From the NCBI GenBank assembly GCA_018384375.1, contig JAHAYJ010000049.1:1-48800 (forward strand): a stretch of 48,800 nucleotides of DNA, given 5' to 3'. Both the position numbers and the translations under genes were made by a program. Position 1 is the first letter of the stretch, and each line of letters begins with the position of its first letter. A model generated the notes under the pieces. That model was not told the DNA's origin. It saw nothing but the letters and a program-made list of their open reading frames with translations, and made no database searches. Positions 8,126 through 42,254 of this stretch are shown here, in pieces. The DNA comes from Lachnospiraceae bacterium (GTDB taxonomy: Bacteria > Bacillota > Clostridia > Lachnospirales > Lachnospiraceae).

Positions 8126-9061
8126 CTATAGCGCTTCACCGGCTATCAGCTTGATCACTGCCGTGTCCGCATAGGTGAGGGGATCATTATGCTCAAAAAA
8201 GACTACCCCGTCTATCGGAGCAGTTAGAATTTCCGTCACCTCTCCCTCATAGGGATCGATCACTCTTGCCAGCTGCTGTCCCTTAGTCACTTCATCTCCT
8301 ACCTTCACGTCACTCTCAAAGATTCCTGCAACCTTCGTCCTGACAGCTACAAGCTCTGTATCCTCTATCACTCTGGAACAATACCCTTCATGACCGCAAT
8401 ATTCCACAATATCCTGTTTGGCAAGAAAGGTCAGAATGCTTCGGATTGCCATTCCTGCACTTTCCTTGTTCACCTGTGCTGTTGTCGTTGTGTAAATACT
8501 AAAGGCACGGGTTTCCCAGATCTGCCAGTTATAGTTGAGCGTGGTGGTATCATAAGGTCTGGTGTTTCTGAGCACCACGTAGGGCATCCCAAATTTCCTG
8601 GCAAGCTCCACACTTTCATAGCCTGCTTTCATCATCCGCACATGAGGCGTAAATTCCCCCGGCATATAGAAGGAGGCAAACTGCATTCCATACTCATAAT
8701 CCTTGATGGCCTCAAAAACCCCCGCTGCGATCCGCTGTGTCGTCTCCCCCAGATGATAGCCCGGAAACATACGGTTGATATCCGTATTATCTGTCGGCCA
8801 GAACCGTTTCTTAATATTCATGGAGTAGGGATTGATAGATGGGATCACCAGAATTTTGTGACCTTTTATAAGCTTCCCCTCCGCCTCCATCCTTTTCAGA
8901 CGCCTGATCAGCTGGGAGCAGGTATACAGCTGCTGAATCTCATTTCCTCGAATACTGCCGACGACACAGACCGATTTTTTCCCATTTCCAAATTCATAAC
9001 CTGTCACACGGAAATTATCCCGGTACAGGGAGTTGATTTCATAGATTGTTTTCTTTTTCAT
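8126..9061 (-). CDS. AstE/AspA-like (M14-type) protein lacking catalytic residues
   Basis: This 311-residue protein aligns over its whole length with its upstream neighbour at 9093-10043, a succinylglutamate desuccinylase/aspartoacylase-type metallohydrolase. The neighbour's H-G-D-E is R-G-N-E here (Arg38, Glu41). Its D-I-H-A-S is M-Q-F-A-S, with Phe128 in place of the zinc-binding His. The segment with the neighbour's catalytic Glu reads I-Y-T-T-T-T. The D-I-N-R-M-F-P-G loop and the C-terminal barrel-sandwich region (about 225-300) remain. It is probably a pseudoenzyme: a partner, binding or regulatory subunit of the active paralog. I start at ATG 9061 because the codon three bases upstream is TTG. 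It is the last gene of the five-gene operon. Confidence 0.75.
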   Translation of the reverse strand: MKKKTIYEINSLYRDNFRVTGYEFGNGKKSVCVVGSIRGNEIQQLYTCSQLIRRLKRMEAEGKLIKGHKILVIPSINPYSMNIKKRFWPTDNTDINRMFPGYHLGETTQRIAAGVFEAIKDYEYGMQFASFYMPGEFTPHVRMMKAGYESVELARKFGMPYVVLRNTRPYDTTTLNYNWQIWETRAFSIYTTTTAQVNKESAGMAIRSILTFLAKQDIVEYCGHEGYCSRVIEDTELVAVRTKVAGIFESDVKVGDEVTKGQQLARVIDPYEGEVTEILTAPIDGVVFFEHNDPLTYADTAVIKLIAGEAL

Positions 9062-9092
9062 CAAACCATAAGCCTTCCTGTCTTACTATCCT

Positions 9093-10043
9093 TCATTCCG
9101 GCAGTGCTTCCGCGCGAAGCAGCCTTCCCACCAGGGAACCCTCATCCACGATCGGATACTCTCTGATGGTAAAAAGAATTCCATCTACCGGAGATAAAAT
9201 CGTGTCGAGCACCTTTCCCCTAAGAGGGTCAATAATCCTTCCGATCTCCTCTCCTTTTTTCAGATGTTCCCAATGCTTCACACTGGGGACAAATACGCCG
9301 GATGTGCTTGCATTCAAATAACTCACGTCTTCCGGATTTCCCGACACAATAGGCTTTCTTGGCGTAATTGTCTCCCCCTGCCAGATACCGAGGGAATGCA
9401 TCAAATGAAAGATCCCATCCACCAGCTGGTTGCAGTATGCCTTGGTGATCCGCATACCCACTCCCATTTCTACTACCAGTGTCGGAACCCCTCTGCTGTT
9501 CAGGCTGTGGGCAAAGGTTGCTTCCAGCACAGTATTTGCTCCATGAATCCAGATAAAATCCACATTCAGTTTCTCCGCCAGAGGAACCAGCATTTCCTTA
9601 TGAAGCTCATTGATACGGATCTGCGGGATCTCCGTCAGATAAATATTGCTTGCGTGAATATCAATACAGACATCAGAGCCGGCAACATCCTCAACAATTT
9701 CAGATGCCAGATATTCCGTCATGTCCCCGTCACTGCTCCCGGGAAACAGACGGTTCATATCAAGGTCAAACCCCGGGATCCCCCTGGTGATCGAATCGAT
9801 TCCCAACGGATTCATGGCAGGATAAACATCCACAATCCCAGTCAGCTTTTCCTTTTCTTCTTCAATGCGTCTGATCAGTTCAAAACAGACATACTGCCCT
9901 TCCAGTTCATCCCCATGAATCCCGGTGACAATACTGATCCTCTTCTTTTTTCCCTTCACCTGATTTACAGGTGTGATATGATTTTTCTTTATCTCCAACA
10001 CTTCATCCACGGGAAGACCCACAGATGCAACTGTTTTAACCAT
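9093..10043 (-). CDS. Succinylglutamate desuccinylase/aspartoacylase family (M14-type) metallohydrolase
   Basis: This 316-residue protein has the zinc motif H-G-D-E (His43, Glu46), the third ligand in D-I-H-A-S (His130), the D-M-N-R-L-F-P-G substrate loop near 95-102, and the catalytic V-E-M-G-V-G (Glu192). Residues about 235-310 form a barrel-sandwich domain common in this family. Family members hydrolyse an amide bond that releases a small acid or amino acid. The substrate here is unknown; linkage to an ATP-grasp ligase suggests a peptide-like product of that enzyme. It lies 57 bp after the transglutaminase-like gene and 31 bp before the inactive paralog, all on the minus strand. Confidence 0.85.
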   Translation of the reverse strand: MVKTVASVGLPVDEVLEIKKNHITPVNQVKGKKKRISIVTGIHGDELEGQYVCFELIRRIEEEKEKLTGIVDVYPAMNPLGIDSITRGIPGFDLDMNRLFPGSSDGDMTEYLASEIVEDVAGSDVCIDIHASNIYLTEIPQIRINELHKEMLVPLAEKLNVDFIWIHGANTVLEATFAHSLNSRGVPTLVVEMGVGMRITKAYCNQLVDGIFHLMHSLGIWQGETITPRKPIVSGNPEDVSYLNASTSGVFVPSVKHWEHLKKGEEIGRIIDPLRGKVLDTILSPVDGILFTIREYPIVDEGSLVGRLLRAEALPE

Positions 10044-10100
10044 CCTGCCTTTTCTGCTCCTTTCCGTACCCAGCCCTGTCCTTATCCAAAGCCCGGATTC

Positions 10101-10886
10101 TCAGTCTTCTTTCACAACGACTCTGACCTGTTGTTGCTGCTTTCCGCCTCCGGTGACAATTCCTCTGTTGATCGAACAATCCGCCGCATCTCTGCCGACA
10201 CCAAGCTTAATATGGGAATCCGACACTACCAGATCATTGGTCGGATCTAGTGCATACCATCTGTTTCCATGCAGGATTTCTACCCAGGCATGACTGTAGC
10301 CCTCCGCAATCAGCATACCGGCAACGTATCTGGCCGGAATCCCCTGCATTCTGCACAGAGTTACCAGAATATGCGCATAATCCTGGCAAACCCCTTTTCC
10401 AAGCCGCCATGCCTCCTCTGCACCGGTATTCACATTTGTCACATTTTTTTCATATGTAAAGTCCCGATACAGACTATGCATCAGGAAAATTCCTTTTTCT
10501 AAAGCAGAACCTAGGGCTTCCGGTGCAAGCTGCTTCAGATAAGCCTTCAGGCTCTCACCCGGCACCGTCAGCCCATGAGGGTAGCGGTACGCTCCCAGCA
10601 TATTTTCCCTTTCTGAGGTTTCAGCATCTGAAAGTCCCGTCAGAACGCTTCCGGTAATATGAAAGCCAAACCGGTCATGCTCCCTGTTTACATTTCCAAA
10701 AATAAGTCGGTTTCCAAAGGAATCCCTTCCTTCCTCCATACTGTCCGCCGGTTCTATCCTGATGTCCAGAGCTTCCACCCGTTGTCTATCCGTACTTTGC
10801 GGCATACACTTAATGGTAAAGTGACTGGTCTTCGCCGGTTCGGAATATGTAAGATGCATATCGTATTCAAAATGCAGCCTTTTCAC
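10101..10886 (-). CDS. Transglutaminase-like superfamily protein
   Basis: The protein has 261 residues. The N-terminal half (about 1-110) is the beta-rich domain usual in bacterial COG1305 proteins (H-F-E-Y-D-M-H-L-T-Y-S-E-P). The papain-like core has all three catalytic elements: Cys in G-V-C-Q-D-Y-A-H, His in S-H-A-W-V-E-I, and Asp in A-L-D-P-T-N-D. Such proteins are usually peptidases or amidases, not protein cross-linkers. No signal peptide is seen. The start is GTG with AAAGGAG seven bases upstream. It lies 12 bp after the alpha-E gene; this pair with circularly permuted ATP-grasp is a recurrent bacterial set, so it may process the ligase product. Confidence 0.88.
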   Translation of the reverse strand: MKRLHFEYDMHLTYSEPAKTSHFTIKCMPQSTDRQRVEALDIRIEPADSMEEGRDSFGNRLIFGNVNREHDRFGFHITGSVLTGLSDAETSERENMLGAYRYPHGLTVPGESLKAYLKQLAPEALGSALEKGIFLMHSLYRDFTYEKNVTNVNTGAEEAWRLGKGVCQDYAHILVTLCRMQGIPARYVAGMLIAEGYSHAWVEILHGNRWYALDPTNDLVVSDSHIKLGVGRDAADCSINRGIVTGGGKQQQQVRVVVKED

Positions 10887-10898
10887 CCTGTTACTCCT

Positions 10899-11561
10899 TT
10901 ATAAGATCGATTCTACCTCATATACAATCTTATAATAGTCGATTTCCGGTTCTGCCACAAGTTCTTTTAGCTTATCCAGTTTGTCCTTGCGATATTCCAT
11001 TCCGCTTCTTTCAATCCTCGGTATCAGTCTGTGGATCTCCCGCACCAGCTCTTTTCGTTCAATTCCCAACCTGGCATACAGATCAATTCTCTCTATCCTT
11101 TTTCCCGTCTTGATGATATTCCGAACCTGTTCCGAGTCAATACTGTCATCCACAATTCCCCAGAAAGCCAGGATATTGTCAATCACCCGCTGCATCTCGA
11201 TCAGTGGGGCCCGGCTGATCTTAGCCTTATTCATATCATAAATGGCAAGCTGGATATAGGATAAGGCCTCCGAACCAATTTCCTCTCTGAGCACGATAGC
11301 ATTGTCATATGCCCTGTTCAGGTTACTGAAAATAGAATCCGGATTGTCCTCATCAAAAGGATAATTCTCTTTAAATACCTCCTTGGAACCATAAACATCC
11401 GGAATATCCACCATCCGGCAGAATTCCGTATAGCTGTCCGTAATCTCATCGATCATCATATCAAAGCTGTTGTAGTATAACCGAAGTGTGGTGTAAACTC
11501 TCTCCGAATACCTTCCCAGCCAAAAAAGTCTGTTTGTCTGTTCTACTGAGATAATACCCAT
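10899..11561 (-). CDS. Alpha-E domain-containing protein (COG2307/DUF403), short form
   Basis: This 220-residue, almost entirely helical protein opens with N-R-L-F-W-L-G-R-Y-S-E-R, the signature of alpha-E proteins. Members commonly have around 300 residues, so this one is short by about a quarter. The helix containing F-W-G-I-V-D-D-S-I and the acidic/basic C-terminal helices are retained. No catalytic residues are known for the family; it is regarded as a partner of the circularly permuted ATP-grasp. Its start overlaps the ATP-grasp gene by 19 bp, which points to translational coupling and a complex of the two. Confidence 0.85.
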   Translation of the reverse strand: MGIISVEQTNRLFWLGRYSERVYTTLRLYYNSFDMMIDEITDSYTEFCRMVDIPDVYGSKEVFKENYPFDEDNPDSIFSNLNRAYDNAIVLREEIGSEALSYIQLAIYDMNKAKISRAPLIEMQRVIDNILAFWGIVDDSIDSEQVRNIIKTGKRIERIDLYARLGIERKELVREIHRLIPRIERSGMEYRKDKLDKLKELVAEPEIDYYKIVYEVESIL

Positions 11562-12862
11562 GTGTCCTTAAATCCTCCTCCCTGAGATGAATTCACAATA
11601 AAGGAATCCGGATTCCGTGAGAATCTGGTCAAACCGCTTTTCCAGACCAAAGGCTCGTCTGCCATAAGCACAAATGCACGCAGATCCGCTTTTCTCGGAA
11701 GCATCTCACTTCCTTCCAGAATATCAAGATCAAGAAAATCAATGACCTCCTGTGCGATAAATCTTCTCGGCTCCTTCTTCAACAGCTCTATAAAGGCTTC
11801 CTTCTGCGTCCTGCTCATACTGCTGCCAAATACCACACCGTATCCTCCGGCCTCTGCCACATCCTTCAGCACCAGCTGTTCAAAATGCTCCAGAACATAT
11901 TTCATGTCCTCTTCATAAAAAGGAAGATAGGTAGGCGCATTATTTAAAATCGGTTCCTCACCCAGATAGTAGCGGATCATCTTCGGCACAAAATAGTAAA
12001 TTCCCTTGTCATCCGCTATTCCATTTCCGGGTGCATTCAAAAGAGCCACATTTCCCTTCCGGTAAACATCATAAATGTGCGGAATTCCAATCACAGATTC
12101 AGGATTAAAGTTCATAGGATCCAGATACTCATCGGAAATCCTCCGATAGACGGCTCCTACCCGTTCCAGCTTTCCGTCATAGGTCACATAGTACAACTTG
12201 TCATCCTTTACCCGCAGCTCTGAGCCGTTTACCAGATGCGCCCCCGTCTTTTCTGCCAGATAGGAATGCTCAAAATAAGCAGCATTATATCTTCCCGGCG
12301 TGAGGATCACGGTGTGCCCTCCCGCGTTCACATTATCCATGGTACGCCTTAACAGCTTTGCATAATTCCGGTTATCCTCCAGTCTGGTATTCTGAAAGGT
12401 CAGCGGACTGCTTCTCCTGCAAAGCTCCCTTGCGATCATGGGATAGGATGCCCCGGACGGAACACGAAGATTGTCCTCCAGAACATACCAGTTTCTGTCC
12501 TTTCCCTGAACCAGGTCAATGCCGGATATGTGAGAATAAATATCCTTGATCGGGGTAACCCCTTCACACTCTGCCATATAGCCGCTGGATGCAAAAATGA
12601 AATCCTCCGGCACCACATTGTCCTTCACGATCTTCTTTTCCGAATAGATATCCTTCAAGAACAGATTGAGCGCCACTACCCTCTGTTTCAGGCCCTTTTC
12701 CAGATAATCAAATTCTTCCTTTTCAATGACACGTGGAATCGCATCAAACGGGAAAAGTTGCTCTTTAAAGGTATTATTTTTATAGATTCCGAATTTTACC
12801 CCATATCGGGCAAGCAGTTCATTGACGGTATCCGTGTGTTCCAACAAGTCCAGATCATACAT
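11543..12862 (-). CDS. Circularly permuted ATP-grasp protein (COG2308), predicted amidoligase
   Basis: This 439-residue protein has the hallmark motifs of circularly permuted ATP-grasp proteins. These are D-L-V-Q-G-K-D-R-N-W-Y-V-L-E-D-N with R-V-P-S-G-A-S-Y-P-M in the first half, then L-K-D-V-A-E-A-G-G-Y-G, R-K-A-D-L-R-A-F-V, and a terminal S-S-Q-G-G-G-F-K-D-T-W-V-L. ATP-grasp enzymes join a carboxylate to an amine through an acyl-phosphate. For COG2308 a role in making peptides or modifying proteins has been predicted from gene neighbourhoods; the reaction is not established. I use ATG 12862, six bases from AGGGAGG; the longer frame back to 12928 would run through a terminator-like hairpin. 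First gene of the operon ending at 8126. Confidence 0.88.
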   Translation of the reverse strand: MYDLDLLEHTDTVNELLARYGVKFGIYKNNTFKEQLFPFDAIPRVIEKEEFDYLEKGLKQRVVALNLFLKDIYSEKKIVKDNVVPEDFIFASSGYMAECEGVTPIKDIYSHISGIDLVQGKDRNWYVLEDNLRVPSGASYPMIARELCRRSSPLTFQNTRLEDNRNYAKLLRRTMDNVNAGGHTVILTPGRYNAAYFEHSYLAEKTGAHLVNGSELRVKDDKLYYVTYDGKLERVGAVYRRISDEYLDPMNFNPESVIGIPHIYDVYRKGNVALLNAPGNGIADDKGIYYFVPKMIRYYLGEEPILNNAPTYLPFYEEDMKYVLEHFEQLVLKDVAEAGGYGVVFGSSMSRTQKEAFIELLKKEPRRFIAQEVIDFLDLDILEGSEMLPRKADLRAFVLMADEPLVWKSGLTRFSRNPDSFIVNSSQGGGFKDTWVLSQ

Positions 12863-12905: not shown

Positions 12906-12934
12906 CAAAAAGACGCTCCGTGATGCACGGAACG
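12906..12934 (-). terminator. Terminator-like hairpin upstream of the ATP-grasp operon
   Basis: On the minus strand cgttccgtg pairs with cacggagcg (arms 12926-12934 and 12914-12922, one G-U pair, 3-nt loop) and a T run follows at 12906-12910. It can end the SDR transcript. The predicted promoter at 12970-12999 lies before it, however, so it would also sit in the leader of the ATP-grasp operon. Confidence 0.65.
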
Positions 12935-12969
12935 CCTTTGTCCACTTTCTTACTGTTTCTTTGTATACA

Positions 12970-12999
12970 ATAATACAATCTAACAAAGTAATTTGTCAA
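12970..12999 (-). promoter_or_regulatory. Predicted promoter of the ATP-grasp/alpha-E/transglutaminase/M14 operon
   Basis: On the minus strand: -35 TTGACA (12994-12999), 18-bp spacer, -10 TATTAT (12970-12975). The region between the SDR stop codon and the hairpin at 12906-12934 is AT-rich. Predicted RNA start is near 12963, giving a leader of about 100 nt. Confidence 0.55.
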
Positions 13000-41945: not shown

Positions 41946-42254
41946 AAAAAAAGTCGCCTCCTTTTCGCACTTTTAATAAGAAATAAGTACGACAAGCGGT
42001 GACTGTACACTCTGCCGTGCGTGTCCTGCTCCTTCATAAAGTTATGTGCAGAATTCTGCACACTTCACCTGAGCACGCTTAACGCCCGTGTTTCTGCCTC
42101 TCTTGGCAGACGATATGTTTGTACAGTGACTTGCCGTCAGGTTCTTAGGTCCGGCATTGCCGGCCTCTTGACATTCGCTCCACGGAAAACCTGCAAAGCC
42201 TCTCAGCCATGCAGCAACCTCACGCTTCATCGCTATCATGCCACAGCAATAGTT
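41946..42254 (-). promoter_or_regulatory. Long structured leader of the S10 operon
   Basis: The stretch between rpsJ and its promoter has no gene. On the minus strand it contains several helices: ccggc/gccgg (42151-42163), tctgcc/ggcaga (42093-42110) and the 18-bp perfect palindrome tgtgcagaattctgcaca (42045-42062). A leader of about 300 nt before rpsJ fits r-protein feedback control. I cannot assign it to a described leader family from sequence alone. Confidence 0.5.

Follow-up and report, generated by a model that had tools for sequence, protein, structure and literature searches.

The window analysed here, a 48,800-nucleotide (nt) stretch of contig JAHAYJ010000049.1 from a Lachnospiraceae bacterium (assembly GCA_018384375.1), carries on its minus strand, from 12862 to 8126, five open reading frames (ORFs) that form one operon. 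They encode an ATP-grasp protein, an alpha-E protein, a transglutaminase-like protein and two related proteins of the AstE type, designated E1 and E2, and are preceded by a leader hairpin of a kind that also stands before genes of ammonium uptake and fixation. All results reported here come from comparison of genomes. The features of the locus, with coordinates in the window, are:

12970..12999, minus strand: promoter, TTGACA-18-TATTAT, with 11 of 12 consensus positions.
12930..12943, minus strand: mini-hairpin GGAC[AAAGGC]GTTC with a six-base loop (A1/G4), a candidate ANTAR-protein site from loop statistics and stem covariation.
12909..12939, minus strand: hairpin resembling an intrinsic terminator, with TTTTTG behind it; it and the mini-hairpin exclude each other (covariation; model R2, 40.2 bits, E 3.2e-6).
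11543..12862, minus strand: circularly permuted ATP-grasp protein, probable amidoligase of the COG2308 type (CP_ATPgrasp_2, PF14403, 5.3e-135).
10899..11561, minus strand: alpha-E protein, short form, 220 amino acids (aa) (PF04168, 5e-22, model positions 7-164 of 294).
10101..10886, minus strand: transglutaminase-like (TGL) cysteine enzyme (Transglut_core PF01841, 1.2e-19, and Bact_transglu_N).
9093..10043, minus strand: E1, AstE/AspA-type zinc amidohydrolase with a complete metal site (AstE_AspA_cat PF24827, 2.5e-23).
8126..9061, minus strand: E2, a homologue of E1 lacking the metal site, probably a substrate-binding or scaffold subunit (AstE_AspA_cat, 3.6e-12).

The ORFs, their Pfam assignments and the single promoter-like site before the five genes (12999-12970) agree with the preliminary description of this DNA, which had named five minus-strand genes, a 19-base-pair (bp) overlap and one upstream promoter; its start for the first gene, ATG at 12862, is also the best start by eye, and for E2 the ATG at 9061 is preferred by eye to a TTG at 9064. 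The overlap joins the ATP-grasp and alpha-E genes (11543-11561) and recurs in 61 of the 69 measurable neighbours within the 80 loci described below. A promoter scan of the region returned 11 sites against 7.8 expected, which by itself is no proof. The -10 region upstream of the ATP-grasp gene, TTGTATTATTGTATACAA, is also present in the close relatives L032, L170, L171 and L174 (L denotes loci and G genomes), and slightly altered in L172, L177 and L033. GntR-type control through the -10 palindrome TTGTATACAA was considered and rejected; among the leaders compared, the palindrome is confined to some close relatives. The conserved hairpin at 12939-12909 had been missed in the preliminary description.

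This hairpin, with its T run, sits between the promoter and the ATP-grasp gene. By a simple hairpin rule, hairpins are present in 70 of 95 leaders, and the 25 without one include extended operons that have the ATP-grasp gene in an inner position; removal of 8 atypical leaders and of exact duplicates left 59, of which 49 were aligned. The terminator stem covaries across these 49 leaders, with 9 of 13 pairs changed on both sides and 56 such double-change cells against 9.3 in shuffled data. Its 5′ arm alternatively folds into a mini-hairpin of the form NNNC[AAAGGC]GNNN, whose stem covaries both in operon leaders (13 double-change cells versus 4.4) and in leaders of other genes (37 versus 12.8); the other two measures, which tally pairs or types of pair, give no clear excess over shuffles. 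Among 66 distinct operon leaders, the loop has A at position 1 in 54 and G at position 4 in 65. In the window (12965-12862), the terminator 5′ arm is predicted to pair also with the downstream segment ACACGGAAC (-27.8 kcal/mol, z -2.6), a possible second antiterminator. Rfam gives no match at the leader by gathering score.

The genes that follow matches to this leader provide the main evidence for its role. A covariance model built from the 49 operon leaders, R1, was run on the source genome and on 40 genera. In the source genome it gives 16 matches, some of which are both strands of one hairpin; behind the stronger ones lie this operon, a cytidylate-kinase-like gene, amt, glnN (type III glutamine synthetase, GS-III), a class IV aminotransferase gene, glnA and an amino-acid binding protein gene, and the weaker ones include fhs, recJ and pyrG. 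One strong match follows a binding-protein gene and may be its terminator. Matches occur in 36 of the 40 genera. The next gene was read for 58 matches, roughly the best-scoring, with one match dropped where the contig ended downstream and the weaker ones left unread; names come from clustering and reading of translated starts, with ten representatives confirmed. These next genes are GS-III (17), Amt/PII (10), gltB (4), glnA (3), asnB (3), purF (3), carA (1), pyrG (1), this operon (4) and 12 others, comprising four ABC-transporter genes, one cytidylate-kinase-like gene, one aminotransferase gene and six more, some of them unknown and one a transposase gene. Nitrogen assimilation, glutamine-using enzymes or regulators thus account for 42 of the 58 (38 without PurF and PyrG), and glutamine synthetase follows 20, far beyond chance. 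Matches also precede the importer ATPase gene that heads extended operons in L112, L124, L182, L184, L186 and L190 (23.2-33.7 bits), and the operon in G484 (L307, 30.8 bits); R1 found no such importer-head match in L188, L192 or L221, nor one before the importer in L036 or L224. On this comparison of sequences, the operon and its leader very probably belong to a nitrogen regulon, and because the RNA switch is common to genes for ammonia uptake and fixation, the five-gene set is probably part of the response to nitrogen shortage. In the source genome (G000), the leader shared by the cytidylate-kinase-like (PF13189) gene lies at G000:C58:9646-9699 (L333), and a similar hairpin precedes fhs (G000:C63:2198-2244, L340) beside a stretch that looks by eye like a glycine riboswitch.

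A second model, R2, was built from 39 nitrogen-gene leaders and contains no operon leader. Because its rows were found with R1 or with the window pattern, it is a cross-check and not independent, and the regulon assignment does not rest on it. It was run on the 61 of 80 loci with the ATP-grasp gene at or near the operon head; the other 19, either extended or with the ATP-grasp gene missing from the data, were left out, and 18 of them were in the R1 run. In 48 of the 61 loci R2 finds a leader no more than 450 nt upstream of the ATP-grasp gene, with 9 sense matches elsewhere in 934 kb and 8 antisense matches, 6 of which are mirror images. In the source genome the window leader ranks second (E 1.1e-5), behind that of amt.

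Hairpins of this kind suggest a candidate regulator. ANTAR proteins are reported to bind six-base-loop hairpins with A1 and G4 that lie beside terminators, mostly upstream of nitrogen genes (PMC3369931). Here, the six-base loop carries A1 and G4, and the hairpin bearing it shares bases with the 5′ arm of the terminator. The source genome has a single ANTAR gene (182 aa), located 35 nt downstream of glnA, and the glnA leader carries the motif. An ANTAR gene is present in 37 of 40 genomes, and the three without one (G055, G059 and G069) are all among the four without leader matches (p 4e-4). In at least nine genomes, a leader lies about 1.9 kb before the ANTAR gene on the same strand; the match in the source genome has E 0.015. 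The leader looks to work like an ANTAR site, and we lean towards ANTAR control of the operon. It resembles the leaders of the EutV, NasR and AmiR type in its loop, its overlap with a terminator, the nitrogen genes behind it and the ANTAR gene in the genome. It differs from them in being a single hairpin near the presumed transcription start, with no upstream hairpin found; across nine loci, Rfam gives nothing at E<=1. Literature searches found neither the five-gene form nor this leader type, although the supplementary candidate list of PMC3369931 may include related clostridial sites; what is new is the regulon membership, with a leader type that these searches did not find in print.

The five genes form one conserved system, as judged from their arrangement across genomes. 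A search of named genome contigs with an E2 profile gave at least 598 stretches, at least 577 of them related, and the best 80 were analysed. All five genes occur in the same order and on the same strand in 66 of these 80 loci, a count of loci that are not all independent, some being one genome reached through two sources (for example L036/L224, L114/L203 and L118/L239). The remaining 14 run into a contig end, have frames that are split or doubled, or hold part of the set; two of them, L185 and L214, are internally deleted. In a family sample of 200 Lachnospiraceae genomes, one per genus, a full ATP-grasp gene (at least 360 bits) is present in 26; E2 is found in all 26 of these versus 25 of the 174 others (Fisher p 8e-19). 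In 24 of the 26, E2 and the ATP-grasp gene share a contig and are no more than about 4 kb apart (G163, internally deleted, is among them); in G153 the trio of ATP-grasp, alpha-E and TGL genes and the E1-E2 pair are on separate contigs, and the G115 contig ends within the TGL gene. In this sample, 23 genera have the complete five-gene set in one place. Weaker ATP-grasp matches are either broken copies (G058, without E2, and G076, G122, G064 and G133) or remote homologues. In a phylum sample of 299 genomes, six have a full ATP-grasp gene, the source genome among them. G484 and G530, both outside Lachnospiraceae, have all five genes; G260, G456 and G407 have the trio with a long alpha-E and no E2 match, and in G407 alpha-E is fused to the transglutaminase. 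Eubacterium plexicaudatum ASF492 (L223) has all five genes and a leader match.

The preliminary description had proposed a single five-gene system, an idea that would fall if pair and trio adjoined only in this genome, or if they had separate promoters and unrelated phyletic patterns. Neither is the case: the arrangement is not private to the source genome, the five genes being neighbours in 23 genera and in two genomes outside the family, and E2 accompanies the ATP-grasp gene in 26 of 26 genomes. Whether the pair always goes with the trio, also raised there, has a divided answer, since it does in the family sample but not in the phylum sample.

Broken or internally deleted operons are seen in several genera (L135, L137, L138, L139, L140, L185 and L214). 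The G133 and G064 copies are reduced to little beyond the first part of the ATP-grasp gene and the last part of E2; in G133 (L140) these two remnants share one frame, and a very strong leader of 57.7 bits precedes it.

Three families, COG2308, COG2307 and COG1305, lie in this one operon, a trio whose function was reportedly predicted from genome context by Iyer et al. 2009. The ATP-grasp sequence is strongly conserved, and the sole solved relative found is 3n6x (E 5.6e-109), titled 'putative glutathionylspermidine synthase'. The alpha-E protein is about two thirds the length of the 330-336-aa form in trio-only loci and is not full length, its match ending at model position 164 whereas those of trio-only L309 and L311 span 1-294 and 1-293; the short form accompanies the E1-E2 pair in the loci compared. 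Its predicted structure is all-helical, with a predicted local distance difference test (pLDDT) score of 91, and a fold search of the PDB with this model gave no match at E<=0.001. In the TGL protein, the columns of the catalytic Cys167-His199-Asp214 are invariant in 16 of 16 sequences.

In proteobacteria the same three families occur in the same order, and several papers bear on their role. There the trio shares an operon with the proteasome-like Anbu, and a function in tagging has been proposed (PMC5666114, PMC6376114), and an assayed ATP-grasp homologue frees phosphate from ATP (PMC6376114). Nitrogen control is reported in Pseudomonas putida, where PP_2685 and PP_2688 are raised on nitrate versus ammonium (PMC8050072), and NtrC and sigma54 control in Burkholderia cenocepacia, where the cluster I35_5080-83 depends on both (PMC5491218); Anbu is also reported to be highly expressed in nitrogen starvation, with P. 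putida cited (PMC6376114). The operon described here differs in having an active/inactive AstE-type pair, an alpha-E of about 220 aa and a leader hairpin common to nitrogen genes. That two lineages, with unrelated regulators, deploy the same enzymes under the same condition is the strongest hint to their role.

E1 has the AstE/AspA zinc site, with H43-x-x-E46, H130 and E192 all present; across 20 sequences H43, H130 and E192 are invariant and E46 is at least 90% conserved. E2 lacks it: in the alignment of the two, His43 corresponds to Arg39 (in R39-G-N-E42) and His130 to Gln128, and Glu is absent at the E192 position, so that two of three metal ligands and the general base are lost. Because R39-G-N-E42, D95-I-N-R98, R143 and D172-T-x-T-L-N-Y-N-W are invariant in 46 E2 sequences, E2 appears from its sequence to be no decaying copy. 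It retains N97-R98 and R143, aligned with their E1 counterparts, arginines of a type that in the AstE family presumably binds the substrate carboxylate. E2 is probably a non-catalytic partner that holds substrate or shape, and the metal-site residues uphold, as a prediction, the preliminary description's 'one active, one inactive' AstE-type protein.

The two proteins are encoded in tandem and are 24% identical. The nearest solved sequences to E1 are 3cdx, 2qj8 and DoeB (6twm), and its residues 237-293 give a partial sequence match to CphZ (E 7e-6); the E2 model (pLDDT 87) matches the folds of 3cdx, DoeB and CphZ. Since DoeB and 3cdx match by sequence and CphZ by the fold of E2, the hydrolase family points to small N-acyl-amino acids or isodipeptides as the substrate class. 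The entire metal site of E1 and these matches place the pair near AstE, aspartoacylase, DoeB and CphZ (a cyanophycin dipeptide hydrolase), from which it differs in the tandem partner with a dead metal site and in scoring far under the cut-offs of the NCBIfam equivalogs (DoeB, AstE and others; best 48.8 bits versus 402.7). A search for plasmid carriage of E2 gave 54 records, every one under 60% identity, with the 20 listed at 28% or less. The E2 of G530 carries a fused SAM-dependent methyltransferase domain (L308, 5669-7204, 511 aa; Methyltransf_11, 4e-22).

The pair also occurs on its own. The source genome has a second E1-E2 pair (G000:C120, L038, 35001-36814), located after a TetR gene and a 153-aa gene and before a standalone purL gene; in L038 and L039-L051 the pair likewise stands behind a TetR gene and a gene of about 150 aa, mostly adjoining purL, an arrangement conserved within the genus. 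In an E2 tree of 94 rows, a well-supported pair clade holds 36 (34 without the trio and 2 with it), and the rows without a trio outside that clade are L037 (a cut contig), L185 (a deleted copy) and L144 (a lone E2). A purL-cluster gene lies directly downstream in 18 of the 34 pair-only loci.

Neighbouring genes were counted as co-directional neighbours in 100 loci, some of which come from one genome. Recurrent among them are amino-acid ABC importer genes (12 of 100), Cytidylate_kin2 (13 of 100) and FUSC-HAD (9 of 100), and a C26 gamma-glutamyl-hydrolase-like gene is found in 5 loci from 4 genomes. The neighbours fit amino-acid uptake. In L112 (14373-15680) and L114 (4603-5895), a FUSC/aromatic-acid-exporter-like N-terminus is joined to a HAD-type hydrolase domain. 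In the window, Pfam identifies an AraC-type regulator gene and an SDR gene as the operon flanks. Anbu was found neither at these flanks nor among the recurrent neighbours, partly named by eye; the genome was not searched for it.

We propose, with a probability of about 0.6, that this is a nitrogen-limitation operon that forms and cleaves an amide and is expressed along with the ammonium-assimilation enzymes. Under nitrogen shortage, the glnA-linked ANTAR protein would bind the six-base loop and block the terminator, so that polymerase reads through and the five proteins are made alongside those enzymes. The ATP-grasp and alpha-E proteins may then activate a carboxylate with ATP and attach it to an amine or an amino acid, the ligase product may be transferred or trimmed by the transglutaminase-like thiol enzyme, and E1, with the dead E2, may cleave an N-acyl-amino-acid or isopeptide bond, returning amino-acid nitrogen. 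The likeliest use, offered tentatively, is to scavenge or recycle nitrogen by way of an amide intermediate, the source being an amine, an amino acid or an isodipeptide. The arginine Ast pathway, which ends in astE, and the gamma-glutamyl-putrescine (Puu) pathway scavenge nitrogen through acyl or amide intermediates, with AstE or a C26 enzyme as final hydrolase. The likeness to them lies in such intermediates and hydrolases, with C26 genes beside loci of four genomes; the differences are another ligase and an operon without oxidase, aminotransferase or succinyltransferase. A more far-reaching version is doubtful: that one glnA-linked ANTAR protein and a compact one-hairpin antiterminator class outside Rfam, placed at the transcription start, run the Lachnospiraceae nitrogen regulon with the operon as a regular member, that the operon is a two-way isopeptide or N-acyl-amino-acid system in which the ATP-grasp/alpha-E ligase makes and an E1/E2 heterodimer cuts a nitrogen-carrying amide, and that pair-only species live on the amide of others.

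Several observations weigh against the proposed role in nitrogen limitation. We know of no substrate for any of the five proteins, and amide synthesis, which consumes ATP and sequesters nitrogen, is surprising under limitation except in the service of breakdown or turnover. The operon is dispensable, because it is broken or deleted in several genera; G058 has a broken ATP-grasp gene (286 bits) and no E2. A cycle is not obligatory: E2 occurs without a full ATP-grasp gene in 25 of 200 genomes, or about 22 after setting aside G168 (contig starting inside the trio), G076 (a broken trio beside the pair) and G100 (a lone E2), and the trio lacks the pair in 3 of the 6 phylum-sample genomes with ATP-grasp. 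With the separate E2 clade, this means that the pair has its own use and that the trio does not need it everywhere. The closed make-and-cleave cycle of the preliminary description stays a plausible proposal. As for the leader, R2 missed 13 of 61 loci (three without usable upstream DNA, and L249 with its match just before an upstream C26 gene); a leader-like match precedes E1 in at most 4 of 34 pair-only loci, two of them weak, and R1 gives no leader match at the second copy, behind the TetR gene, in the source genome. The ANTAR absences call for caution, with genome completeness of 87, 67 and 86% in G055, G059 and G069, and G043 has an ANTAR gene and no leader match. A search for the second, upstream hairpin that defines dual ANTAR sites gave a negative result (4 of 64 leaders versus 8.4 by chance, and 11 of 58 versus 6.8), and for this reason the leader is not classed as a standard ANTAR site. 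Both nitrogen reports naming Anbu or PP_2688 are on one species. Anbu and its operon partners are reported to show unchanged expression across various conditions (PMC5666114), and the phosphate release by the assayed ATP-grasp homologue has no known acceptor (PMC6376114).

Other explanations account for parts of these data. The trio could attach a small amino-acid tag to proteins in nitrogen starvation, with E1-E2 removing it in place of Anbu. Nitrogen starvation is a setting for protein turnover, and the published accounts describe the Anbu operon and propose tagging (PMC5666114, PMC6376114), although no specific interaction was detected for the operon proteins in Yersinia (PMC6376114). With AraC-type and SDR genes as flanks in the window, C26 as the only peptidase gene among recurrent neighbours, the small-molecule deacetylase DoeB among the solved relatives of E1 by sequence, and a pair that also occurs alone, we consider tagging improbable. 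Slightly easier to entertain, but still unlikely, is an exported N-acylated or peptide-like metabolite, for which E1-E2 would provide self-protection or reuse and pair-only species would be consumers or resistant. The FUSC-HAD and amino-acid importer neighbours, the tailoring-type domain of the E2-methyltransferase fusion in G530 (L308), and the patchy presence and repeated loss of the operon would fit export; however, 88 to 91 of the 100 loci have no FUSC-HAD or importer neighbour, further biosynthetic genes are not among the recurrent neighbours, and genes for a secreted metabolite do not usually share a leader with housekeeping nitrogen genes.

Trio and pair could also be two unrelated modules, the first one system and the second a general N-acyl-amino-acid scavenger that shares only the transcript. 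The 25 genomes with E2 and no full ATP-grasp gene, the purL-cluster gene that immediately follows 18 of the 34 pair-only loci and the separate E2 clade favour such a division, which the co-occurrence in the family sample (26 of 26 versus 25 of 174, p 8e-19), the fixed gene order and the short alpha-E tied to the pair in the loci compared make distinctly improbable. Least probable of all is an ordinary terminator of favoured sequence without regulation. Some model matches do follow a gene and could be simple terminators (L334 is one example), but this hairpin lies between promoter and start codon, the next genes are nitrogen-related far beyond chance (20 glutamine synthetases among 58), and the mutually exclusive small stem covaries in two sets of leaders.

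Recognition of the trio from genome context dates from 2009, and its product is still undescribed in the literature consulted. The nitrogen-limitation reading supplies for the five-gene form a physiological condition for assay in culturable gut anaerobes such as Eubacterium plexicaudatum ASF492; the substrate of the paired hydrolase should be the ligase product or its precursor. The leader is a regulatory switch transferable to a reporter construct, and offers a route to reading off the nitrogen regulons of a major gut family. A further structured RNA in the window, at 42157-42238, is an S10-Clostridia ribosomal protein leader (Rfam RF03136, 72.5 bits).

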